DNA of 32,958 bases from Halomonas sp. (GTDB lineage: Bacteria > Pseudomonadota > Gammaproteobacteria > Pseudomonadales > Halomonadaceae): NCBI GenBank assembly GCA_024636705.1, contig JAGXGN010000164.1, positions 1 through 32,958 of the forward strand. Direction: 5' to 3'. Below the pieces are notes generated by a model. The model saw only the letters and a program-made list of their open reading frames with translations, had not been told where the DNA came from and searched no databases. How positions within the stretch are numbered: position 1 is the stretch's first letter; each line of letters begins with the position of its first letter. Of the stretch, positions 17,928 through 31,440 are shown piece after piece. The position numbers were made by a program, and so were the translations under genes.

Positions 17928-19475
17928 TTACTTCGACGTCGGCATCACGAACTCGGCTCCCTTGGCGATACTCTCGGGCCAGCGCTGCATGATCGACTTC
18001 TGCTTGGTGTAGAAGCGCACGCCCTCTTCGCCGTAGGCGTGCATGTCGCCGAACAAGCTCTTCTTCCAGCCGCCGAAGCCGTGCCAGGCCATGGGTACCG
18101 GGATCGGAACATTGATACCGACCATGCCAACCTCGATGCAACGGCCAAACTCGCGGGCAACGTTGCCGTCGCGGGTATAGCAGGCGACGCCGTTGCCGAA
18201 CTCGTGGGCATTGACCAGGTCCACCGCCTCAGCGAAATCCTTCACCCGCACGCAGGCCAGCACCGGTCCGAAGATCTCCTCCTTGTAGATGCGCATCTCC
18301 GGGGTGACGTGATCGAACAGCGTGCCGCCGATCCAGAAGCCGCCCTCGTGGCCGGGCACCGTGAAGGGGTTGCCGTCGGCGTCGACGCGGCCGTCAACGA
18401 GCAGCTCGGCGCCGCTTTGTGCGCCGTCTTCGATGTAGTCCTGGATCCGCTCCAGCGCCTGACGGGTGACAATGGGACCCATCTCGGCGTCGAGTTCCAT
18501 GCCGTTCTTGATCTTGAGCTGCTTCGTCCGTTCAGCCAGCTTGGGCATGATCTTGTCGGCGACATCACCTACCAGCACCGCCACCGAGATGGCCATGCAG
18601 CGTTCGCCGGCGGAGCCGTAGGCGGCGCCGATCAGACCGTCGACCGCCTGGTCGAGATCGGCGTCGGGCATCACCACCATGTGGTTCTTCGCGCCGCCCA
18701 ACGCCTGCACGCGCTTACCCTGTTCGGCGCCGCGCCGGTAAATGTAGTGCGCGATCGGAGTGGAGCCGACGAAGCTCGCCGCCTTCACGTCCGGGTGGTC
18801 GATCAGTGCGTCCACGGCGACCTTATCACCTTGGACGACGTTGAAGACGCCGTCGGGCAGCCCGGCCTGCTTGAATAGCTCGGCCATGTACAGCGCGGCC
18901 GAGGGGTCGCGCTCGCTGGGCTTGAGCACGAAGGTGTTGCCGCAGGCGATGGCCACGGGGAACATCCAGCAGGGCACCATCACCGGGAAGTTGAACGGGG
19001 TGATGCCGGCGACCACACCCAGGGGCTGGCGCAGCGTCCAGTTGTCGATACCGGTGGAGACTTGGTCGGTGAAGTCGGTCTTGAGCAGTTGGGGGATGCC
19101 CAGGGCGAACTCCACGATATCGATACCGCGGGTCACCTCACCCTGGGCGTCGGTAAATACCTTGCCGTGCTCGTGGGTGAGGATCTCGGCCAACTGGTCG
19201 CGGTGCTCGTTGAGCAGGGCCAGGAAGTTGTTGAGGATGCGGCTGCGGCGAATCGGCGGAAGCTTTGCCCAGCCCGGCAGAGCAGCCTTGGCGCTGGCGA
19301 CCGCGGCCTCGACGTCTTGTACGCTGCCCAGGGCCACCTTTCGGCTTACCTCGCCGGTGGCCGGGTTGAACACGTCTTGGGTGCGCTCACCGGTGCTTGG
19401 CGCCACATGGCCACCGATCCAATGCTGAGCGACGTCACTCTGTGCGATCTGCGAGGGGGTGTTGGAAACGCCCAT
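17928..19475 (-). CDS. mmsA: CoA-acylating methylmalonate-semialdehyde dehydrogenase
   Basis: [67 protein letters not shown]. Confidence 0.92.
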
Positions 19476-19605: not shown

Positions 19606-20538
19606 ATGTCCGCCCAACAAATTTCCCCCGTGCTCGCTGACCTGCATCTGCTGACCGTGCTGGGCCAGGCGCGCAGCTTTACCAAGGCGGCGCGCCGGCT
19701 GGGCGTCTCCAAGGCCTCGGTAAGCACCCGCATCGCCAACCTTGAGCGTGTCGTTGGCATGCCGCTGGTGCGCCGGACCACCCGCTCGGTGGTGCTCACC
19801 GACGCCGGGCTGCAACTGGTGGAGGACATTGAGCCCTCTTTCGTCCGCATCGAGCAGAGCCTCTCCAGCATCAAGGATCTGGCCGGGAACCCGCGCGGCC
19901 TGTTGCGGGTGAGCGCCCCGGTAGCGCTTGGGCGCCAGCGTATCGCCCCGATGCTGCCGGCCTTCCTGCAGCGCTACCCGGAGATCCGGTTGGAGCTCGA
20001 TCTCTCGGATCGCTTCGTCAACCTTGCCCAGGAGGGCTTCGATCTGGCCATCCGCCACACCCAGTCAGCGCCGGAGACCCACGTGGCATGGGTCCTGAGG
20101 GAGTCGCGCTCGCTGCTTGTCGCCAGCCACGATTACCTGGAGCGCCACGGCGTACCCCGACACCCTGCAGACCTGAGTCGCCATGAGTGCTTGATGTATC
20201 TGCGTGACGGCAACACCCAGAGCTGGAGCTTCGAACGCGAGGCCGGCCGTAAGCGCGGCGAGCGGATCGGTGTGCCAGTCGGCGGGCGCTTCAAGGCCAA
20301 CAACAGCGAGGTGCTACGGGAAGCGGTGCTGGGCGGGCTGGGCATTGGTCTGTTGCCGGACTTCACCGCCGTGGATGAGCTCCGGCCCGGTCGCTTGGCG
20401 CAGGTGCTGCCGGCCTGGAAGCCGGTGGGCTTCTTCGGCGAGCGGTTGTTTGCGATCAGGCCTTGGACGCGGCAAGTGCCGCGGGCGGTGCAGTGCCTGG
20501 TTGATCACTTGCGCCAGGGCTTCGCGGCAATAGCGTAG
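19606..20538 (+). CDS. LysR-family transcriptional regulator
   Basis: N-terminal HTH SFTKAARRLGVSKASVSTRIANLERVVGMPLVRRTTRSVVLTDAG. Confidence 0.93.
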   Translation: MSAQQISPVLADLHLLTVLGQARSFTKAARRLGVSKASVSTRIANLERVVGMPLVRRTTRSVVLTDAGLQLVEDIEPSFVRIEQSLSSIKDLAGNPRGLLRVSAPVALGRQRIAPMLPAFLQRYPEIRLELDLSDRFVNLAQEGFDLAIRHTQSAPETHVAWVLRESRSLLVASHDYLERHGVPRHPADLSRHECLMYLRDGNTQSWSFEREAGRKRGERIGVPVGGRFKANNSEVLREAVLGGLGIGLLPDFTAVDELRPGRLAQVLPAWKPVGFFGERLFAIRPWTRQVPRAVQCLVDHLRQGFAAIA

Positions 20539-20729: not shown

Positions 20730-20785
20730 ACAACCCATCCACAGCCTCAAGTCGATCTGTTACGCAAGCGCGCCGACCTATTGCC

Positions 20786-20815
20786 ATGCCTTCTTAGAGC
20801 CTTTTGAGAAGGCAT
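20786..20815. terminator. 9-bp perfect hairpin (ATGCCTTCT ... AGAAGGCAT)
   Basis: inverted repeat with 12-nt loop; no U tract. Confidence 0.3.
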
Positions 20816-20820
20816 GCTTG

Positions 20821-20840
20821 AATTTATCGACCGATTAACA
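20821..20840. promoter_or_regulatory. putative shared operator, site 1 (upstream of TRAP operon)
   Basis: AATTTATCGACCGATTAACA; 17/20 match to reverse complement of site 2. Confidence 0.6.
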
Positions 20841-21042
20841 GATCATTTGATCAATGCCAAGACAAGAGGCGTCCGCCTGGATGGAGCGTCCCAGAGGAGC
20901 GAGGGTAGACCTCTCGGCAATTCACTGCATTGCCAGATCAGCCAAGCCGGCGGTAGGTCCGCCGGGGCATAATCTCTCCTCCCTTGCCGAGGCAGAAGGT
21001 ACCGTCCAGTGTGACGGTCGTCTGCAACTGTAGGAGAAAACA

Positions 21043-22113
21043 ATGAAACTATTTAAAGCCGGCCTTGCCGGTGCTCTTGCCTTGGGTGTAGGTCTGGCAA
21101 GCACCAATGTCGTCGCAGCAGAACGCATCACCGTCAACATCGGTTCCAGCCATCCGGTTCAGAACATCTGGGTATGGGCGATGAAGAACGTCTTTCAGCC
21201 CGAGGTGAACCGCATCCTCGAAGAGCAGGGTGACGACTACAAAATCCGCTGGCGCGAGAATTATGGCGGAACCCTGTATAAGTTTTCCGAGACCCGCAAG
21301 GCGGTGAAAGAAGGCATCGTCGACGTCGGCATGATTGGTACCGTGTGGGAGGAGTCCGACCTGCCGCTGCAGAACGTCACGTACTACACCCCGTTCGCCA
21401 CCGATGACCACAAGCTCATCATCAAGATTTTCGATGACCTTAACCAGAATCTTCCGGAACTTCGCGACAGCTGGCACAGGCAAAATCTGGTGCACCTTTC
21501 GACGCTGGTCACCGACAGCTACGACATCTACGCCACCAGCCAGATCAAGACGCTGGAGGACCTTCAGAATATACGCCTAAATGCTCCGGGTACTTCCGCG
21601 AACTGGCTTAAGGGTACCGGCGCCATTCCTGTCGACGGTGGCCTGACCACCTACTACACCAATATCCAGACTGGTGTCACCGAAGGCACCTTGTCATTCG
21701 CCAGCGGCATTGGCCCGGCTCGAGTGCATGAGGTCGCTCCGGAGCTGACCCGTGTAGGCTTTGGCTCAATGGCCTTCGGTGCCGTGGCAGCCAATAAGCG
21801 TTTTTTTGACAATCTTCCAGAGGAAGTCCAATCAGCGTTCCGTCAGGCTGGCAAGGTCATGTCGACGCGTCATGGTGAGCACGTCACCAAGACCGCCGAG
21901 GAGTGGCTGGCCGTTATGCAGGAAGAGGGATTGGAGATCCATGACTTGCCTGCCGCCGAGAAGCAGCGTTGGGTGAACAGCTTGCCGAACCTGGTCGGCC
22001 CATGGCTGGAGGCCAATGGTGAGGATGCTGAAGTGGTCCTGAAGGCTTACTTCGATAAGTTGCGCGAGAACGGCGTTGAGCCGTTGCGAGCCTGGGACGC
22101 AGTCGTCCGCTAA
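21043..22113 (+). CDS. dctP: TRAP transporter substrate-binding protein (DctP family)
   Basis: signal peptide, IDTLEDLQ-like KTLEDLQNIRLNAPG, TNIQTGVTEGTLSF; followed by DctQ and DctM. Confidence 0.9.
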   Translation: MKLFKAGLAGALALGVGLASTNVVAAERITVNIGSSHPVQNIWVWAMKNVFQPEVNRILEEQGDDYKIRWRENYGGTLYKFSETRKAVKEGIVDVGMIGTVWEESDLPLQNVTYYTPFATDDHKLIIKIFDDLNQNLPELRDSWHRQNLVHLSTLVTDSYDIYATSQIKTLEDLQNIRLNAPGTSANWLKGTGAIPVDGGLTTYYTNIQTGVTEGTLSFASGIGPARVHEVAPELTRVGFGSMAFGAVAANKRFFDNLPEEVQSAFRQAGKVMSTRHGEHVTKTAEEWLAVMQEEGLEIHDLPAAEKQRWVNSLPNLVGPWLEANGEDAEVVLKAYFDKLRENGVEPLRAWDAVVR

Positions 22114-22120
22114 GCCGCAT

Positions 22121-22142
22121 GGCCGCGCCCTTCGGCGCGGCC
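22121..22142 (+). terminator. 9-bp GC hairpin between dctP and dctQ
   Basis: GGCCGCGCC-CTTC-GGCGCGGCC; no U tract, so attenuator/RNA-stabilising element rather than full terminator. Confidence 0.5.
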
Positions 22143-22170
22143 TATTCCAAGTCACGAAACGAGACTTGCC

Positions 22171-22713
22171 ATGAGCATCACGAATAACGCAACTTCGTCT
22201 GCTGTCGGGTGGTTCGTACGTCTTGCCGACCTCCTCGCTGCCCTCGGCACATTCTGGATTTTCGTACTGATGAGCCTGGTAGTGGCGGATGTCGCCGGGC
22301 GCAACTTCTTCGACACACCGCTTACAGGTGTCGCCGAGTTTGCTGGTCTATCCGTGGCGGCCATCGTGTTCCTGCAGCTGGGAGCGGGAATCCTTGGTGG
22401 CCGCATGACTCGTGCCGGCTTCCTGATTGACTTAATCGATCGGCGCCTCCCGAGGCTGCGGTTGGCTCTGGATGTGCTGTATGCCCTGGTGGGCTGTTTC
22501 ATCTTCGCGCTGCTTACATACAGTGCCTGGCCGGAGCTGATGCTGTCCTGGCAGAGCGACGAGTTTTATGGTGTACGCGGCCTCTACATGCTTCCGGGCT
22601 GGCCCTTCCGAGCCCTGGCAGTGATCGGGGCAACGATGGCGACCCTGGCCTACCTGTTTCTGATTCCGGTGCTGTTGCAGCGGGGGCCAACCGACACAAC
22701 GAGGGCTTCCTGA
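22171..22713 (+). CDS. dctQ: TRAP transporter small permease (DctQ family)
   Basis: four hydrophobic segments; VVADVAGRNFFDTPLTGVAEFAGL. Confidence 0.9.
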   Translation: MSITNNATSSAVGWFVRLADLLAALGTFWIFVLMSLVVADVAGRNFFDTPLTGVAEFAGLSVAAIVFLQLGAGILGGRMTRAGFLIDLIDRRLPRLRLALDVLYALVGCFIFALLTYSAWPELMLSWQSDEFYGVRGLYMLPGWPFRALAVIGATMATLAYLFLIPVLLQRGPTDTTRAS

Positions 22714-24041
22714 TGAGCGATCTAGGCTTCACCGCCCTGGTTATTGGCACACTTGTTATGCTGGTGCTGATGGGGATGCACATCGCTGTGGCGCTAATGA
22801 CAGTGGCCTTCGTTGGGATGTGGGTAATCCGGGGCAATTTCGACTTGGCCCTCCAAATGATGTACATGTCCGCTTACGGTGGTATCTCCAGCTATATCTT
22901 CGCGACCATTCCATTATTCGTCCTGATGGGTTTATTGGTCAGTATTTCCAATATTGGAAAGGATACTTTCGACGTCGCTGAAACCTTTCTGCGGCGCGTA
23001 GCAGGCGGTCTGGGCGTGGCCACCGTGGCGGCGAATGCGGTCTTTGCGGCCGTAACCGGCGTGTCCATCGCCTCCGCAGCGGTGTTTACCAAGGTGGCAG
23101 TTCCTGAGATGGCCAATCATGGCTACCGTAAGGCATTCGCCGCTGGGACCGTGGCGGGCAGTTCGGTTCTGGGTATGCTGGTGCCGCCAAGTCTGCTTTT
23201 GATCGTCTATGGTGTGCTAGCGGAGGAGTCCATTGGCAAGCTCTTCATCGCCGGATTGATTCCGGGGGTAATCCTGGCGGTTGGTTTCGTGGCAATTATT
23301 GTGCTGTTGGCTATATTCGCTCCACGCTTTGTGTTCGATTTCGACCGCCTGAAGGAGCTCGGCGAAGCCCGGAGGATTCAGCCGGTGCTCACCGGTAAGC
23401 AGTTGGCGGGTAAGTCCCTGCCCATTGTCGCCTTGGTGCTGCTGGTTTTGGGCGGACTTTACGCTGGCTTCTTCACGCCGACTGAGGCGGGCGGCATGGG
23501 CGCCTTTGGTGCCTTCGTCATTGCTCTGATGCGTCGCTCGCTGACTCCACAGCGGATGTGGGAGGTGCTGCGGGAGACCGGAGGAGTATCCATCAGCATC
23601 CTGATTCTGTTGATCGCCGCGCTCTTCTATAGTCGCATGCTTGCCATGGCTGGTGTACCTATGGCCATTTCGGATATGGTGTTGGACGCGAACCTGGGGC
23701 CATATGGTTTTCTGGCGTTGTATGTTCTCATCGTGCTGTTGATGGGCATGATATTAGACTCTACTTCGATACTGCTGGTAATGGTCCCAATCGCGGCCCC
23801 GATTGCCACGGACTTCGGCTTCGATTTGATCCACTTTGGCATTATCACAGTGATCGCGGTGGAGATCGGCCTGCTGACACCGCCATTCGGCATCTCAATC
23901 TTCACTGTGAAATCCACGCTCAATGACGAGAGTGTTTCGGTGGAGTCCATTTTCGGTGGAGTCCTGCCCTACGTCGCAGTGATGCTTTTCGTTCTGGCGC
24001 TGATCGCGGCGTTCCCAGCGTTGACTCTGGTCCTGGTCTGA
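22713..24041 (+). CDS. dctM: TRAP transporter large permease (DctM family)
   Basis: PLFVLMGLLVS, GTVAGSSVLGMLVPPSLLLIVYG, FFTPTEAGGMGAFGA, LLTPPFGISIF. Confidence 0.95.
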   Translation: MSDLGFTALVIGTLVMLVLMGMHIAVALMTVAFVGMWVIRGNFDLALQMMYMSAYGGISSYIFATIPLFVLMGLLVSISNIGKDTFDVAETFLRRVAGGLGVATVAANAVFAAVTGVSIASAAVFTKVAVPEMANHGYRKAFAAGTVAGSSVLGMLVPPSLLLIVYGVLAEESIGKLFIAGLIPGVILAVGFVAIIVLLAIFAPRFVFDFDRLKELGEARRIQPVLTGKQLAGKSLPIVALVLLVLGGLYAGFFTPTEAGGMGAFGAFVIALMRRSLTPQRMWEVLRETGGVSISILILLIAALFYSRMLAMAGVPMAISDMVLDANLGPYGFLALYVLIVLLMGMILDSTSILLVMVPIAAPIATDFGFDLIHFGIITVIAVEIGLLTPPFGISIFTVKSTLNDESVSVESIFGGVLPYVAVMLFVLALIAAFPALTLVLV

Positions 24042-24131
24042 GCGTGTGCCGGTCGCGACAGCTGTCATCACGTCTATCCACCTGGGCGCCGCGGACAACG
24101 GGGCGCCGTGTTTTCCGGAGGCCATCGGCCA

Positions 24132-24830
24132 ATGAAACAACCGGTTCCTCTGGACGATGTGGGACTGCCCGGCCGCGCCCTGGACTGGAGTCGCGAGCAC
24201 CGCAATGGGGTGCTCCAGCGCCCTCGAGTCGCCGCCCTGGTGCTGGCGGCTGGTGGCTCGCGCCGGATGGGCCAGGCTAACAAGCTGCTACAGCCTTGGC
24301 GGGACGAGGCGTTGGTGCGGCATGCGGTGCGCGCGGTGGTGCAAAGCGGTGCAGCACCGGTCTATCTGGTGGTCGGCCACCAGGCCGAGGCCGTCACCCG
24401 GGCGACGGACGACCTGCCCGTGATGACTGTCTACAACCCCGATCACGCAGAGGGGCTGTCCAGCAGCCTGCGGGCGGGACTGCGCGCCTTGCCTGAAGAG
24501 GTCGACGGTGTACTGGTGGCCCTGGGCGACATGCCGCGAGTCAACCCGCGGGATCTACGTCGTCTACAGGCCGCCTTCAACCCAGCCGAAGGCCGGGCCA
24601 TCTGTGTGCCGATCTATCAGGGCAAGCGCGGCAATCCGGTGTTGCTGGGTCGGCAGTTATTCGCCGAACTACTGCTCCTAGAGGGGGACCTGGGCGCGCG
24701 TTACCTGATCGGAGTCCATGAGGACCTGGTAACCGAAGTGGCAGTGGAGGGATCCGGGGTGCTCTTGGATGTGGACACCCCCGCCGCCCTGGAGCAGCTG
24801 CGTCGCGACGCAGGGGAGCCGGCTTCATGA
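24132..24830 (+). CDS. MobA-like NTP transferase (molybdenum cofactor cytidylyltransferase-like)
   Basis: ALVLAAGGSRRMGQANKLLQPW; GLSSSLRAGLRALP; LVALGDMPRV; GKRGNPVLLGRQLF. Confidence 0.88.
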   Translation: MKQPVPLDDVGLPGRALDWSREHRNGVLQRPRVAALVLAAGGSRRMGQANKLLQPWRDEALVRHAVRAVVQSGAAPVYLVVGHQAEAVTRATDDLPVMTVYNPDHAEGLSSSLRAGLRALPEEVDGVLVALGDMPRVNPRDLRRLQAAFNPAEGRAICVPIYQGKRGNPVLLGRQLFAELLLLEGDLGARYLIGVHEDLVTEVAVEGSGVLLDVDTPAALEQLRRDAGEPAS

Positions 24831-24934
24831 GCGTCCTTCCTCCGCTACCTGCCACAGCGCACCCGGATGTCTGGTGCAAGGTGCGAGAGGTTTTCGGCAT
24901 CGACAGTGAGCTGCGCGTGCCGGCCTCTCGCTAG
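24827..24934 (+). CDS. 35-aa ORF coupled to the MobA-like gene, probably a truncated gene
   Basis: ATGA overlap; MSVLPPLPATAHPDVWCKVREVFGIDSELRVPASR*. Confidence 0.35.
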   Translation: MSVLPPLPATAHPDVWCKVREVFGIDSELRVPASR

Positions 24935-24989
24935 CCAAGCGAGCATCTTCTGGTCAAGTCGTAGTGGACACTTTTTTCAGCAGATTTCG

Positions 24990-25547
24990 CTACAGCAATA
25001 TAAAGGCACTGGCCGCGGCAGCGGCGAGAACGACGGCTGCGATGATCCAGCCGAGGCGGTTAATGCCGGCTGTCGGTTGTGCCGCCCCCGGCGCGGTGGA
25101 CTTGCCGCCGCTGACCTGCTCGACGAAATTGCAGAAGAAATCATCTGCGGTCTTGCGGACTACGCCCTGGATGAGCCGGCTGCCTACGCTGGCCAGCTTG
25201 CCAGCCACCTCCGCATTGGCGGTGTAGCGCAGGACGGTTTCCTGCGGTCCGCTCTCCTCCAGTTCGACGCGGGCCGAGCCCTTGGCGGAGCCGGCCATGC
25301 CGCCTTGGCCCTGGCCGGAGATGGTGTAGCTGCGCGGGGCGTCGATATCGGAGAAGTCTACCTTGCCGTTAAACCGAGCCTTGATGGAGCCGATCTTGCT
25401 GACGATACGGGCGGTGAAGGTGGTGTCTGATACCTTGTCCAGGGCCTCACAACCGGGGATCGACTCCTGCAGCACCGCCGGATCATTGAGCGCCTCCCAG
25501 ACCTGCTTTCGTGGTGCGGGGATACGATGCTCGCCTGAAATCTCCAT
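24990..25547 (-). CDS. coxG: CoxG-family SRPBCC protein
   Basis: MEISGEHRIPAPRKQVWEALNDPAVLQESIPGCEALDKVSD...; C-terminal hydrophobic anchor. Confidence 0.9.
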   Translation of the reverse strand: MEISGEHRIPAPRKQVWEALNDPAVLQESIPGCEALDKVSDTTFTARIVSKIGSIKARFNGKVDFSDIDAPRSYTISGQGQGGMAGSAKGSARVELEESGPQETVLRYTANAEVAGKLASVGSRLIQGVVRKTADDFFCNFVEQVSGGKSTAPGAAQPTAGINRLGWIIAAVVLAAAAASAFILL

Positions 25548-25568
25548 AGTGCGTCCTCCTCGGTACGC

Positions 25569-25588
25569 TATTTATCTTTTGATAACTA
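25569..25588. promoter_or_regulatory. putative shared operator, site 3 (upstream of coxG)
   Basis: TATTTATCTTTTGATAACTA; perfect TTATC-N4-GATAA arms. Confidence 0.55.
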
Positions 25589-25750
25589 AAATAGATGATA
25601 GCGGCTGGAGCGAAAAAATCAAGGGGAAGAATGCGCCGGGCGCGGGGGTCTCATGCGTTAGTCAAGCTGGCTCAGAGCGCAGAGAAGGCATCACACGGCT
25701 TTTCACCGTGACCCTGTGCCTCCCTATGGTACGTTTGATGAACGGAGCGC

Positions 25751-25776
25751 ATGGGCTTCGCTGGGCTATGCCCATC
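25751..25776. repeat. possible REP-like intergenic hairpin between coxG and tetR
   Basis: ATGGGCTTCGCTGGGCTATGCCCAT... ATGGGC/GCCCAT arms; only one copy seen here. Confidence 0.3.
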
Positions 25777-25805
25777 CTGTGGGAGCTACCGCGGAGCCGG
25801 GCCCG

Positions 25806-26462
25806 CTAAACATCGTGCCTGGCGAAGTGCCAGCGCAAGGTCACGGGCGTGCCTTCGATGAAGCTGTGAACCACTCTTTCGATGTGACCATCGAGGTCCT
25901 CCGGGATGGGCAGGTTGTAGATCCACTTGCGGATGGCCAGGTAATAGATCCCGCCATGGAGGTTCCAGGCAAGCTCCAGCTCTTCGGGCTCAAGCGGCAC
26001 CTCGTCGGTGGAAGGCAACCCTGCCACCTCACGCAGTTCGGTGCATACTGGTACGAACAGCTTGTCCTGGACGATACTCAGGTAACGCTCGGTGATGTTC
26101 CCGCCCTTCAGCCCGGAAAACATGAAGATGCGCACCCACTCATAGTTGAAGATCGCCCGGGTGTACTCCCGATACAGGGTAACCAGGCGCTCCTCCAGGG
26201 GCCGGCTACGGTCGATGATCAGCGCCTCCCAGTGCGGCTGCCAGCGTTTGATGTAGACCTCGTTATAGACCCGTTCGATCAAGCACTCTTTGCTCGGGAA
26301 ATAGCGGTACAGTAATGGCTGGGTGATGCCTAAGCGCTTGGCCAGCTCCCGGGTTTGACCCTCGAAACCGACCTCGGCGAAGAAGCGGATCGCCCCGTCA
26401 ACAATCTGGCGCTCCCGCTGCTCCGGGGTAAGCCGCCGCCGTTTGCCTGTTTCCGCTTTCAC
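25806..26462 (-). CDS. TetR/AcrR-family transcriptional regulator
   Basis: RERQIVDGAIRFFAEVGFEGQTRELAKRLGITQPLLYRYFPSKECLIERVY. Confidence 0.93.
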   Translation of the reverse strand: MKAETGKRRRLTPEQRERQIVDGAIRFFAEVGFEGQTRELAKRLGITQPLLYRYFPSKECLIERVYNEVYIKRWQPHWEALIIDRSRPLEERLVTLYREYTRAIFNYEWVRIFMFSGLKGGNITERYLSIVQDKLFVPVCTELREVAGLPSTDEVPLEPEELELAWNLHGGIYYLAIRKWIYNLPIPEDLDGHIERVVHSFIEGTPVTLRWHFARHDV

Positions 26463-26553
26463 CGCTCTACTCCTTTCGCTAAGACTGCCACCATTCTTGC
26501 CGCCTGCGGATACGACTACAAGGGCATTGACATCGGCCCACCGGTCGCCGCAT

Positions 26554-26573
26554 AGTTAATCGATTGATAAATT
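26554..26573. promoter_or_regulatory. putative shared operator, site 2 (between tetR and coxM)
   Basis: AGTTAATCGATTGATAAATT; reverse complement AATTTATCAATCGATTAACT. Confidence 0.6.
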
Positions 26574-26623
26574 GCGGCGACGCTACCGGTTGCCGCCTAT
26601 GAGCTGCCGGAGGAGACGAAGAC

Positions 26624-27523
26624 GTGAAGTCGCCGCAATTCGACTATGTACGCCCGGGTTCGCTGGACCAAGTGCTGGACCTGTTGGCCGAGCACGGGGA
26701 CGAGGCCCAGGTAATCGCGGGCGGCCAAAGCCTAGTGCCCACCATGAACATGCGCCTGGCAGCCCCGAGCGTGCTGGTGGATGTGAACCACGTCCCTGGT
26801 CTGGCCGGTGTCGAACTGTGCGGCAAGTGGCTGCGCATTGGTGCGCTGACTCGCCACGCAGAAATCGCGTGCTCCCCGGAGGTTGCTCGTCACGCCCCGC
26901 TGCTAGCCCGTGCAGCGCCTTACATCGCCCACGAGGCGATCCGCAATCGCGGCACCTTCGGCGGCAGCGTCGCTACCGCCGACCCCGCCTCGGAGTGGCC
27001 GGCCTGTTGCCTGACCCTTGGGGCGCGCATTCACCTGGCCAGCCGCAAAGGCACCCGAACCATCCCGGCGGAGGATTTTTTCGAGGGCGTCTACCAGACC
27101 GCCATCGAGCCCCACGAGCTGATCACCCACGTGGAGGTGCCGGCGGCCGCCGACGGCATGCTCTACGGCTTCGACGAACTAGCCCGGCGCAAGGGCGATT
27201 ACGCCATCGTTGGACTAGCCGTCCAGGCTCGAATCGGCGCGAAGGGGCCCATGAAGCTGCTGCGGCGCAACGACCAGCGCCTGTCCGAGGTTAGGCTGGG
27301 CTTCTTCGGTGTGGCCGAAACTCCTGTGCTGGCCCAGCAAGCCGCCGCCGCACTGGAGGGCCGGCCCCTAGACGCCGAATCCATCCAGGCCGCTCAGTCA
27401 GCCCTGGCCGATGACCTCCAGCCCCTAAGCGATCTCTACACCTCAGCCGAGGCCAAGACCCACATGACTCGCGTGCTCCTTGGCCGAGTGCTGCACGCAT
27501 TGAGCGGAGACCATAGCGCATGA
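26624..27523 (+). CDS. FAD-binding subunit of molybdenum hydroxylase (CoxM family)
   Basis: VIAGGQSLVPTMNMRLAAPSVLVDVN; AIRNRGTFGGSVATADPASEWPACCL. Confidence 0.93.
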   Translation: MKSPQFDYVRPGSLDQVLDLLAEHGDEAQVIAGGQSLVPTMNMRLAAPSVLVDVNHVPGLAGVELCGKWLRIGALTRHAEIACSPEVARHAPLLARAAPYIAHEAIRNRGTFGGSVATADPASEWPACCLTLGARIHLASRKGTRTIPAEDFFEGVYQTAIEPHELITHVEVPAAADGMLYGFDELARRKGDYAIVGLAVQARIGAKGPMKLLRRNDQRLSEVRLGFFGVAETPVLAQQAAAALEGRPLDAESIQAAQSALADDLQPLSDLYTSAEAKTHMTRVLLGRVLHALSGDHSA

Positions 27524-28011
27524 GCGACATCAACTACGAGCTCAACCTGACCGTTAATGGCGAGCGCGGCAGCTTCCGTGTCAGTCCGCGACTTTCCTTG
27601 GCCGACTTTCTACGCGAGGAACTGCACTTGACCGGCACCCATGTCGGCTGCGAACAGGGTGCCTGCGGCGCTTGCACCGTGCGCTACAACGGCGACCAAG
27701 TGCGCGCCTGTCTGATGTATGCCGTGCAGGCCGAAGGGGCGGAGGTCGAGACCATCGAGGGTATCACCGAGAGCGGCGAACTGGCCGCCCTACAGGAGGC
27801 CTTCCACCGCAACAACGCCTTGCAGTGCGGCTTCTGCACGCCGGGCATGCTGATAGCCGCCGCCGACCTGCTCAAGCACAACCCCAGCCCGGATCGCGAC
27901 CAGATTCGCGCCGGGATATCCGGCAACTACTGCCGCTGCACTGGCTACCATTCCATTGTCGACGCCGTGGCCGAGACCTGCAGCGGTGGCACCAAGGAGG
28001 CTACGCAATGA
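27520..28011 (+). CDS. 2Fe-2S subunit of molybdenum hydroxylase (CoxS family)
   Basis: THVGCEQGACGACTVRYNGDQVRAC and NALQCGFCTPGM ... GNYCRCTGYHSI. Confidence 0.96.
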   Translation: MSDINYELNLTVNGERGSFRVSPRLSLADFLREELHLTGTHVGCEQGACGACTVRYNGDQVRACLMYAVQAEGAEVETIEGITESGELAALQEAFHRNNALQCGFCTPGMLIAAADLLKHNPSPDRDQIRAGISGNYCRCTGYHSIVDAVAETCSGGTKEATQ

Positions 28012-30389
28012 GCGAAAAACCTCACTTGAGCGTCCTAGACCGTCCGAACAGTTATATCGGCCGCAGCGTGCCGCGGCCCAACGCCCGCCGGCTGCTGGCG
28101 GGCCGCGGTCAGTATCCCTCCAACGTCAGCTTGCCGCGCATGGTTCACGTAGCCTTCGCCCGCAGCCCCTTTGCCCACGCCCGTATCGTCGGCGTCGACA
28201 CCGAGGCAGCCCGTCAAGCGCCCGGAGTAGTGGGGGTGTTCGTCGGCGAGGACATTGCCAAGATCTGTCAGCCTTGGGTCGGCACCCTGGAACACTTCGC
28301 CGGCATGAAGTCCGCGCCGCAGTACCCGCTGGCCCACAACGTGGTTCGTTGGCAGGGCGAGCCGGTGGTAGCGGTGGTGGCCCAGACCCGCGCCCTGGCT
28401 GAGGACGCGCTGGAACTGCTGCTAATCGACTACGAAGAACTGCCCGCGGTAACCGACCCGGAGACCGCCCTGGACCCGGACACGCCATTGATCCACCCGG
28501 AGCTGGGCGACAACCTCGTTTTCGGCAGCAAGGTGGAGGCTGGCGACATTGAGCGAGCCTTCGCCGAGGCGGACCTGGTGGTGGAGGACGAGTTCCACTT
28601 CGGCCGCCACACCGGGGTGACCCTGGAGCCACGGGTGGTGGTGGCTGACTATGATCCCAGCGAGGAGCGGCTGACTGCCTACCATGGCACTCAAACGCCT
28701 TACCAGATGCAGGACGTCTATGCCCGCCACCTCGGCTTGGCCGAGGAGAACGTGCGGGTGGTCGTGAAGGACATCGGTGGTGCCTTCGGTATCAAGCTGC
28801 ACGTTCACGGCGAGGAAATGACCACCTGCGCACTGAGCATGCTGCTCAAACGCCCGGTGAAGTGGTCGGCGGACCGGTTGGAGTCCTTCGTCAGCGACAT
28901 TCACGCCCGCGATCACCGGGTGCGCGCTCGGCTGGCCCTGACCAAGGACGGCAGGATCCTTGGTTATGACGTGGACGATCTCACTGGCGTTGGGGCCTAC
29001 TCCGTGTACCCGCGCACTAGCGCGGTGGAGGGTAACCAAGTCATCAAGCTGGTGGGTGCCCCGTACACCCAGCAGCACTACCGGGCGGTGCTCAAGGTAG
29101 TGCTGCAGAACAAGAACGTCATGAGCCAGTACCGGGCGGTGGGCCACCCAATCGCCTTCACCGTCACCGAGGCGTTGGTGGACAAGGCTGCTGCCGAGCT
29201 GGGGCTGGACCCGATGGAACTGCGCGCCCGCAACTATGTCCCCGACGACGCCTATCCCTACAAGAGCGCCAGCGGTTTCACCTACGAAGGGCTGTCCCTG
29301 CAGCGCTCGCTGGAGAAGCTCAAGGAGATGATCGGCTATCCGGAGTTGCGCGAAGAGCAGCGGGGGCTGCGGGACAAGGGGGTCTACCGTGGCATCGGCA
29401 TTGCTACCTTTGTTGAAATTACCGCCCCTGGGCCGGCCTTCTACGGCGTCGGCGGCGCACGCATTTCCTCCCAGGACGGTTGCTCGATGAAGCTCGAGCC
29501 CTCGGGCAAGGTGCAACTCGCTATCAGCGTCAACGAACTCGGCCAGGGTACCGAGACCATAGTTGCCCAGATCGCTGCTACCGAACTCGGCATTGCCATG
29601 GAGGACATCCGCGTCGTCACCGGCGATACCGGCGCGACCCCCTACGGTGGCGCCGCCTGGGCTTCCCGGGGAGCAGCCATCGGCGGGGAAGTCACCGTGC
29701 GTGCCGCCCGGGCCCTGCGCGACAGCATTCTGGAGGTGGCTGGAGCTTCCCTGCAGACATCTCCGTCAGAGCTCGACCTGCGCGACAGTCTGGTGGTCAG
29801 CCGCGAGGATGGCGAGGAGCTGATCAGCCTCGCCGAGGTTGGCCGGATCGCCTACTTCCGCAGCGACACTCTGCCCCCAGGATTTCAGCCCCAGCTCTCG
29901 GTGGTGCGCCACTACTCGCCGCAGGGCCTACCCTTTGCCTTCACCAACGGCGTGCACGCTTCCTATGTGGAAGTGGACGTGGATACCGGCCTGGTGCGGT
30001 TGCTAAACCATTGGGTGGTGGAGGACTGCGGCCGGGTGTTGAACCCGAAGTTGGTGGACGAACAGGCCCGCGGCGGCGTCGCTCAGGGCATCGGCATGGC
30101 CTTGTTCGAGGAGTGCCTGTACAGCGCCGACGGCCAGCTCACAAACGGCAGCCTTGCGGATTACCTTGTGCCGCTGTCCTCTGAGCTGCCCGACATTGAA
30201 GTGGCTCATATAGAGACGCCCAGCCAGTACTCTGAGATCGGCGCCAAAGGCGCCGGCGAGGCGGGTACTGCCGCCTCACCGGCAGCGATCATGAATGCCG
30301 TTAACGACGCGATCGCCCCGTTGGGCGGGCGGGTTACCGCCATGCCCATGACTCCCGAGCGCATCCTGCGCAGCCTAAAACGCATCTAG
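28008..30389 (+). CDS. molybdopterin-binding subunit of xanthine dehydrogenase/CoxL family hydroxylase
   Basis: start ATG 28008 overlaps coxS-like stop; IGRSVPRPNARRLLAGRGQY; GGAFGIKLHVHGEE; GAKGAGEAGTAASPAAIMNAV with catalytic Glu; 793 aa. Confidence 0.92.
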   Translation: MSEKPHLSVLDRPNSYIGRSVPRPNARRLLAGRGQYPSNVSLPRMVHVAFARSPFAHARIVGVDTEAARQAPGVVGVFVGEDIAKICQPWVGTLEHFAGMKSAPQYPLAHNVVRWQGEPVVAVVAQTRALAEDALELLLIDYEELPAVTDPETALDPDTPLIHPELGDNLVFGSKVEAGDIERAFAEADLVVEDEFHFGRHTGVTLEPRVVVADYDPSEERLTAYHGTQTPYQMQDVYARHLGLAEENVRVVVKDIGGAFGIKLHVHGEEMTTCALSMLLKRPVKWSADRLESFVSDIHARDHRVRARLALTKDGRILGYDVDDLTGVGAYSVYPRTSAVEGNQVIKLVGAPYTQQHYRAVLKVVLQNKNVMSQYRAVGHPIAFTVTEALVDKAAAELGLDPMELRARNYVPDDAYPYKSASGFTYEGLSLQRSLEKLKEMIGYPELREEQRGLRDKGVYRGIGIATFVEITAPGPAFYGVGGARISSQDGCSMKLEPSGKVQLAISVNELGQGTETIVAQIAATELGIAMEDIRVVTGDTGATPYGGAAWASRGAAIGGEVTVRAARALRDSILEVAGASLQTSPSELDLRDSLVVSREDGEELISLAEVGRIAYFRSDTLPPGFQPQLSVVRHYSPQGLPFAFTNGVHASYVEVDVDTGLVRLLNHWVVEDCGRVLNPKLVDEQARGGVAQGIGMALFEECLYSADGQLTNGSLADYLVPLSSELPDIEVAHIETPSQYSEIGAKGAGEAGTAASPAAIMNAVNDAIAPLGGRVTAMPMTPERILRSLKRI

Positions 30390-30459: not shown

Positions 30460-31440
30460 ATGCAGCATCTGGACCTCCAGGTCATCGAACGCGCCCTGGC
30501 CTGGGCTCGCGAGGGCGAAACGCTGTGGCTGTGCACCGTACTCGCTACCTTCGGTTCCTCGCCCCGGGAACCCGGCTCCTGGCTGGTGGCGCGGCGGGAC
30601 GGTCGGCATGTCGGATCGCTCTCCGGCGGCTGTGTCGAGGAGGATTTCCTCGCCCGCCTGCGTGACGGCGAGTTCGATCGTCCGGTGTCCACCTTGTGCT
30701 ATGGAGACCCCGAGGGTCCTCGAGGCCCTCGGATCCGCCTACCCTGTGGAGGCATCCTTGAAGTACTGATCGAGCGACTCCCGCCGAATGCCGCCACCCT
30801 GGCGCACTTCGAAGCGCTATATGATGCATTGGTGGGTCGCCGCCATCTGGTTCGCTGCGTCGATCCGACCACCGGGGACGTACATTGTCTCGATGACCAG
30901 GGCGTGGGGCCGCGGGTTGTGCGGGATAGTAAGGGGGGCATGATACGGATGCGCGTCGGGCCGACGGCCCGGCTGATCGTCGCCGGGATTTCTCCGGCTT
31001 CTGTGGCCTGCGCCGAGTTCGCTCGCGCTCTGGGCTTTGAGGTGATCGTCTGCGACCCTCGCGAGGAGGCCCGCCTCGACTTCAACGTACCCGGCGTTGA
31101 GTTGCGCCCGGAACTGCCCTCGCTGCATATCGCATCGGGCGCCTGCCATGCTGCCACTGCCGTGGTGGCCCTGACCCACGACCCGCGCATCGACGACTTG
31201 GCCATGATCGAAGCGGTGCGAACGCCCGCCTTCTACATCGGGGTGATGGGCTCGCTGCGGACTTCCGAGGCGCGCGCCGAGCGGCTACGCCGTTCCGGCG
31301 GCCTGACCGACGACGACCTCGACCGCCTGCACATGCCGATCGGCCTGTCGCTTGGTAGCAAGACACCTGCCGAGATCGCTTTGGCAGTGATGGCCGATAT
31401 CCTGCGCGTGCAGCGTGGTAGAGCCCGGGATACGCTCTAA
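30460..31440 (+). CDS. XdhC/CoxI-family protein
   Basis: TFGSSPREPGSWLVARRDGRHVGSLSGGCVEEDF; C-terminal Rossmann YIGVMGSLRTSEARAERL; HMPIGLSLGSKTPAEIALAVMADI. Confidence 0.92.
   Translation: MQHLDLQVIERALAWAREGETLWLCTVLATFGSSPREPGSWLVARRDGRHVGSLSGGCVEEDFLARLRDGEFDRPVSTLCYGDPEGPRGPRIRLPCGGILEVLIERLPPNAATLAHFEALYDALVGRRHLVRCVDPTTGDVHCLDDQGVGPRVVRDSKGGMIRMRVGPTARLIVAGISPASVACAEFARALGFEVIVCDPREEARLDFNVPGVELRPELPSLHIASGACHAATAVVALTHDPRIDDLAMIEAVRTPAFYIGVMGSLRTSEARAERLRRSGGLTDDDLDRLHMPIGLSLGSKTPAEIALAVMADILRVQRGRARDTL

Follow-up and report, generated by a model that had tools for sequence, protein, structure and literature searches.

Local TetR repressors of catabolic gene clusters include NicS and NicR2, which act in nicotinate and nicotine degradation in Pseudomonas putida. 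In systems of this type, the TetR gene lies beside a molybdenum-hydroxylase pathway and short dyad operators are placed at the regulator's own promoter and at its target promoters. The locus described here, in a 32,958-nucleotide stretch of Halomonas DNA (the window), shares this arrangement as far as its candidate operators are concerned, and release of the regulator by a pathway compound is expected here as well. The original prediction for this DNA held that three palindromes connect a TRAP transporter, coxG and a divergent tetR/coxM pair into one regulon of the TetR protein, and this reading withstood each computational test proposed with it, namely the frequency of the motif in the genome and its conservation in orthologous loci. 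We consider it very likely, judging from sequence comparisons, that the TetR encoded at 25806-26462 has its operators in the three palindromes and that this protein is a substrate-relieved, autoregulated repressor of import and hydroxylation genes.

Gene content of the locus

The genes around the sites are as follows.

17928-19475, minus strand: CoA-acylating methylmalonate-semialdehyde dehydrogenase (MMSDH; TIGR01722, 678 bits)
19606-20538, plus strand: LysR-type regulator upstream of dctP, a rival candidate for binding the palindromes
21043-22113, plus strand: dctP, TRAP substrate-binding protein (PF03480; NF037995)
22171-22713, plus strand: dctQ, TRAP small membrane subunit (PF04290)
22713-24041, plus strand: dctM, TRAP large membrane subunit (PF06808)
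24108-24830, plus strand: MocA/MobA-like molybdenum cofactor nucleotidyltransferase (PF12804; best model TIGR03310)
24990-25547, minus strand: coxG, membrane-anchored maturation-type protein with a C-terminal hydrophobic segment (PF06240, 8e-34)
25806-26462, minus strand: tetR, TetR-family regulator of 218 aa (PF00440)
26624-27523, plus strand: coxM-type FAD subunit of molybdenum hydroxylase (PF00941/PF03450)
27520-28011, plus strand: coxS-type [2Fe-2S] subunit (PF01799/PF00111)
28026-30389, plus strand: coxL-type molybdenum subunit (PF20256/PF02738/PF01315)
30460-31440, plus strand: xdhC-type maturation factor (PF13478/PF02625)

The DctP, DctQ and DctM components of a TRAP transporter are encoded within one operon. 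The MocA/MobA-like gene, whose product scores 156 bits against TIGR03310 (under the cut-off of 186), starts 67 bp after dctM and probably belongs to the dctPQM operon, while xdhC, 70 bp after coxL, is probably in the same operon as coxL. With this operon structure, the predicted regulon is larger than originally proposed and also takes in dctQM, the cofactor gene of MocA type and xdhC. The MMSDH gene adjoins the regulon and has no exact operator in the window.

The Mo-binding, FAD and 2x[2Fe-2S] subunits are encoded together, which places the enzyme in the three-subunit xanthine oxidase family. Its likeness to aerobic CO dehydrogenase (CoxMSL/CoxG) lies in the subunit architecture and the CoxG partner. 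The CoxL of form I CO dehydrogenase carries a diagnostic active-site loop, (A/S)YRCS(F/L)R (PMC13240472). This loop is not found in the coxL-type subunit, where the aligned segment is SQYRAVGHP, and the large subunit scores 482-528 bits against CO dehydrogenase models that have cut-offs of 950-991. These two results rule out an identity as CO dehydrogenase; therefore, the 'cox' name is not to be taken as CO oxidation. The nearest solved large subunit in the PDB, matching over the whole length with 525 bits, is that of quinoline 2-oxidoreductase (Qor, 1t3q), which is likewise a three-subunit molybdenum hydroxylase of the xanthine oxidase family. The Qor loop reads GAYRGVGF as against SQYRAVGHP here, and this closest solved relative does not thereby establish the substrate.

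Three palindromes at promoter-like elements

The three palindromes are located as predicted, upstream of correctly called dctP, coxG and tetR/coxM genes. Sites 1 and 2 are identical at 17 of 20 positions and all three sites fit TTTATC-N4-GATWA. We refer to them as candidate operators 1 to 3, and a weaker dyad lies next to the first.

20824-20837 (extended 20821-20840), plus strand: operator 1, core TTATCGACCGATTA, 206-219 bp 5' of the dctP ATG
20840-20853, plus strand: weaker second dyad AGATCATTTGATCA, centre 16 bp from operator 1
25572-25585 (extended 25569-25588), minus strand: operator 3, core TTATCAAAAGATAA, 25-38 bp 5' of the coxG ATG
26557-26570 (extended 26554-26573), minus strand: operator 2, core TTATCAATCGATTA, in the gap of divergent tetR/coxM

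Operator 1, on whose upstream side the LysR gene ends, is found within a promoter-like TTGAAT(20817-20822)-N17-GATCAT(20840-20845) element that was spotted by eye and has both hexamers kept in the related locus L122. The operator and its flanks are kept in L122 and L007, with 11 of the 14 core columns invariant. Operator 2 abuts a promoter-like TTGACA-N18-CATAGT (26527-26556, plus strand) in the direction of coxM and is, among four genomes, the most conserved 14-mer of the tetR-coxM intergenic region. Just upstream of operator 3 lies a promoter-like TTGATT-N16-TATCAT (25622-25595, minus strand), and the position of this operator is kept in L006, L007, L008, L022 and L029. The σ70 promoter-like elements are weak consensus matches; the operators overlap, abut or follow them, so the arrangement fits a repressor. 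The dyad AGATCATTTGATCA, identical in L122 and partly retained in L007, is possibly a second, tandem TetR binding site or just a conserved −10 region.

A terminator-like hairpin (20785-20816; 14 pairs, loop of 4) is present 3' of the LysR gene, directly before operator 1. In addition, a 9-bp inverted repeat, GTCGCCGCA...TGCGGCGAC (26545-26582), encloses operator 2; this outer repeat is absent from L006 and L007 and may be accidental.

The motif is rare and clustered

With up to one mismatch allowed, TTTATC-N4-GATWA gave six strand-matches in the 33 kb window, which are the three sites on both strands each. Dinucleotide shuffles of the window gave an expectation of 0.08 matches, and six were reached in none of 100 shuffles. 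In the host genome, a draft of 2,605,834 bp that is 80% complete, TWATC-N4-GATWA occurs four times compared with twice for a backwards-pattern control, and three of the four sites fall within 5.75 kb. At the control rate, a stretch of this length expects ~0.004 sites and the Poisson probability of three is ~1e-8; thus, the clustering is far beyond chance. A scan of spacer lengths from 0 to 11 returned nine loci at N4 and none at every other length. When the host genome was scanned with a less strict consensus of 19 bases, allowing up to two mismatches, the three sites were among seven one-mismatch matches, and the remainder were scattered genome-wide. By both the genome counts and the shuffles, then, the motif departs from its background frequency. 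The consensus is short (10 bases), and one might suppose that the three sites are AT-rich dyads that arose by chance against a GC-rich background, but the genome-wide and shuffle statistics and the conservation in relatives refute this computationally, leaving it a practically negligible probability.

The fourth exact site (C73:30927, TTTTCCACATAATCTGTGGATAAG) is an inverted pair of DnaA-box-like TTATCCACA/TTTTCCACA between two converging genes. We set aside this site and the weaker C56:7330 and C152:426, which are DnaA-like, at a gene end or intragenic.

Conservation of the candidate operator in relatives

A search for TetR orthologues in the host's order at E<=1e-30 returned none except the window's own. 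Because this narrow search was empty, relatives were drawn from a broader TetR scan of contigs from 84,980 species genomes, which gave 80 relatives. The orthologous intergenic regions keep the motif upstream of coxM/tetR, coxG and dctP, as anticipated, to ~56% TetR identity, and loci of both gamma- and alphaproteobacterial orthologues have the same operator at coxM/tetR, coxG and dctP (or dctP/dctQ). It is found in the coxM/tetR gap of L006, L007, L008, L010 and L017 and at coxM in L121 (L009 contig), L018, L020, L021 and L029. The coxG position carries it in L008, L022 and L029, and a mixed TGATC-N4-GATAA in L006 and L007. It is also present at dctP in L007, L122 and L018 and between divergent dctP/dctQ in L021, L022 and L126 (L020/L126), with L029 likewise by position. 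Among loci whose TetR has a TQPL-type recognition helix and an adjacent coxL, 12 of 14 contain the exact site; it is absent from L012 and L025 despite their tetR-cox pair, and away from cox clusters a further 20-odd TQPL-type TetRs are without it.

When the intergenic regions of three or four genomes are aligned, the 14-bp cores have 11, 11 and 9 invariant columns of 14, compared with means of 3.2, 2.8 and 2.4 for intergenic 14-base windows elsewhere. No other window of the tetR-coxM gap is as conserved as the operator core, and in the other two regions a few windows reach it, the top ones listed being at the ribosome-binding site and the start codon. In each of the three regions, the operator thus ranks first or close to first in conservation.

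The L006 genome (2.5 Mb) contains two exact sites, both in the regulon, and the sole exact site of the L009 genome (3.3 Mb) is in the regulon, while the backwards-pattern control is 0 in both. Gammaproteobacterial genomes of the cox-cluster group have 1-5 exact sites each. Further sites, L120 in the L007 genome and L117 within a SulP-like coding sequence of the L008 genome, were put down to chance. Low-GC alphaproteobacterial genomes (e.g. G307) are rich in background matches and were therefore used at the tetR locus only.

Covariation of half-site and recognition helix

The tetR product belongs to the TetR family, matching the HTH model PF00440 at residues 20-65 (2e-13, 50 bits). Its AlphaFold2 model (pLDDT 91.8) consists of ten helices, with HTH helices at 37-44 and 48-54, and combines the HTH with a ligand-binding/dimer domain; the named PDB fold hits are TetR-family regulators. 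The recognition helix reads TQPLLYRY, and the model has the TQPL residues opening the second of the two HTH helices (48-54). Likeness to RutR, the TetR of pyrimidine utilisation, is confined to the HTH, and a RutR identity or regulon was rejected, as the scores of 21-24 bits fall well below the cut-offs, 230 and 368.

TetR paralogues encoded away from cox clusters differ in their recognition helix. Within the same palindrome geometry, the half-site differs by helix: TTATC with TQPL, TGATC with TQSL, TTACC with THQN and TRACC with SHAV. The 38 TQPL-type loci contain 25 TWATC-N4-GATWA sites (0.2 expected), the 39 TQSL-type loci 53 TGATC-N4-GATYA sites (2.2 expected) and the three THQN-type loci six TTACC-N4-GGTAA sites (0.0 expected). 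L041, which has a SHAV helix and the same coxMSL-coxG-dctPQM cluster, carries two TRACC-N4-GGTYA sites in its tetR-coxM gap and no TWATC site. The helix classes follow clades (TQSL one, THQN/SHAV another), so that this pattern reflects two or three independent changes, not dozens. The sites, their rarity and conservation, the gene content and the HTH/operator covariation are all directly computed.

This covariation bears on which protein recognizes the palindromes and gives strong, though indirect, support to binding by this TetR. The LysR-type regulator, or another DNA-binding protein, could be proposed instead of TetR, as the LysR gene adjoins site 1, the order LysR-site-dctP is preserved in the L006 genome and the regulator is a conserved neighbour in L122. 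However, in alphaproteobacteria the motif accompanies cox, TRAP and coxG genes next to tetR, and the fetched loci yielded no homologue of LysR; the TetR helix and half-sites change together. LysR operators, moreover, are typically T-N11-A with longer footprints, and we regard this assignment as very improbable. The box of a global regulator (ModE, Fur, DnaA or similar) occurring here by happenstance would be a further explanation: the relatives' sites near modB and xdhC make a molybdenum-responsive factor imaginable, and the fourth genomic site is DnaA-like. Such a box is hardly credible, since from one class to another the sites accompany tetR and shift in sequence with the TetR helix, and a global regulon would need far more than the 1-5 exact sites counted in each gammaproteobacterial genome of the cox-cluster group. 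Because the half-sites follow the TetR helix and LysR was not found in the alphaproteobacterial loci that keep the motif, TetR rather than LysR or a global factor is, with high confidence, the predicted binder of the three palindromes.

Other helix classes have sites of their own. The large TQSL paralogue clade of Burkholderiales (L043, L034, L036, L046 and others) has TGATC-N4-GATYA operators, which in L043 adjoin a hydrolase gene as well as genes resembling flavin reductases and luciferases (all named by eye); this clade seems to represent a second and apparently undescribed regulon. In L027, L084 and L085 (Cupriavidus/Pseudomonas, THQN), pairs of AATTACC-N4-GGTAATT-like sites are located at tetR and ~4 kb off at efflux-like genes (names by eye).

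Proposed mechanism and possible wider regulon

In the proposed mechanism, an inducer-free TetR dimer would occupy the 14-bp dyad TWATC-N4-GATWA and repress three transcripts, namely coxMSL-xdhC together with tetR from the shared gap, coxG, and dctPQM-mocA. A small molecule would act as inducer, and the simplest candidates are the substrate imported by the TRAP transporter and the hydroxylase product. On its entry into the C-terminal pocket, TetR would leave the DNA, and the transporter, the molybdenum hydroxylase and the cofactor and maturation genes would then be turned on together. We infer the DNA binding, repression rather than activation, and the identity of inducer and substrate, and suppose that the TRAP-imported compound is what the hydroxylase oxidises.

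The best PDB sequence and fold hits of this TetR are HapR/LuxR/SmcR-type regulators, which have the same fold. HapR/SmcR-type proteins both activate and repress, and the present TetR might accordingly bind the sites as an activator or respond to an inducer unrelated to the transported compound, such as a stress or quorum signal. However, the similarity is moderate (19% identity, TM about 0.6, and 22 bits against the NCBIfam HapR model with a cut-off of 350), the regulon is a compact catabolic set rather than a quorum set, and the operators overlap or follow promoter elements. We thus consider activation or an unrelated signal unlikely and prefer substrate-relieved repression.

Relatives add operator-linked MMSDH, xdhC, modB and chemoreceptor genes. 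A site lies between an MMSDH homologue and divergent xdhC in the L008 genome (L125), and in the L007 genome sites are found between xdhC and modB (L118; modB passes TIGR02141) and 5' of a Tar-like methyl-accepting chemotaxis gene (L119). These single-genome cases suggest that the same regulator can extend its reach to chemotaxis, to the uptake of molybdate and to a C3/C4 semialdehyde step further down the pathway. A 3-hydroxyisobutyrate-dehydrogenase-like gene is present inside the L010 cluster; together with the MMSDH neighbour, it hints at a substrate route ending in (methyl)malonate semialdehyde.

Comparison with known systems

The regulon and operator are testable for an unstudied TetR clade common to gamma- and alphaproteobacteria. 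They would link to one substrate a TRAP transporter and a 'cox'-type hydroxylase that are both orphans, the latter often mis-named CO dehydrogenase, and the operator could lead to that substrate through a search for the molecule that dislodges TetR. The covariation between helix and half-site also makes a clean small data set on DNA-specificity change in TetR proteins. More tentatively, and with rather less than even probability, an undescribed TetR subfamily may govern whole 'supply chains' for molybdenum hydroxylation, with paralogues rewired via recognition-helix substitutions. If true, one regulator and one dyad coordinate different steps genome by genome, including chemotaxis to the compound, TRAP import, molybdate uptake, cofactor nucleotidylation, hydroxylase maturation and a downstream semialdehyde dehydrogenase, and the rewiring of paralogues follows a readable helix-to-half-site code.

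Open-access text contained no relevant description of a TetR/TRAP/molybdenum-hydroxylase regulon (subscription journals were outside the search). The type of system is well known, while the particular regulator, operator and target set are not described in the open-access literature searched. NicR2 (5fgl) has no close sequence relation to the present TetR and, with a TM of about 0.58, is just one among many fold matches of moderate quality. Compared with the NicS and NicR2 systems, the predicted targets here are a TRAP transporter, coxG and xdhC.
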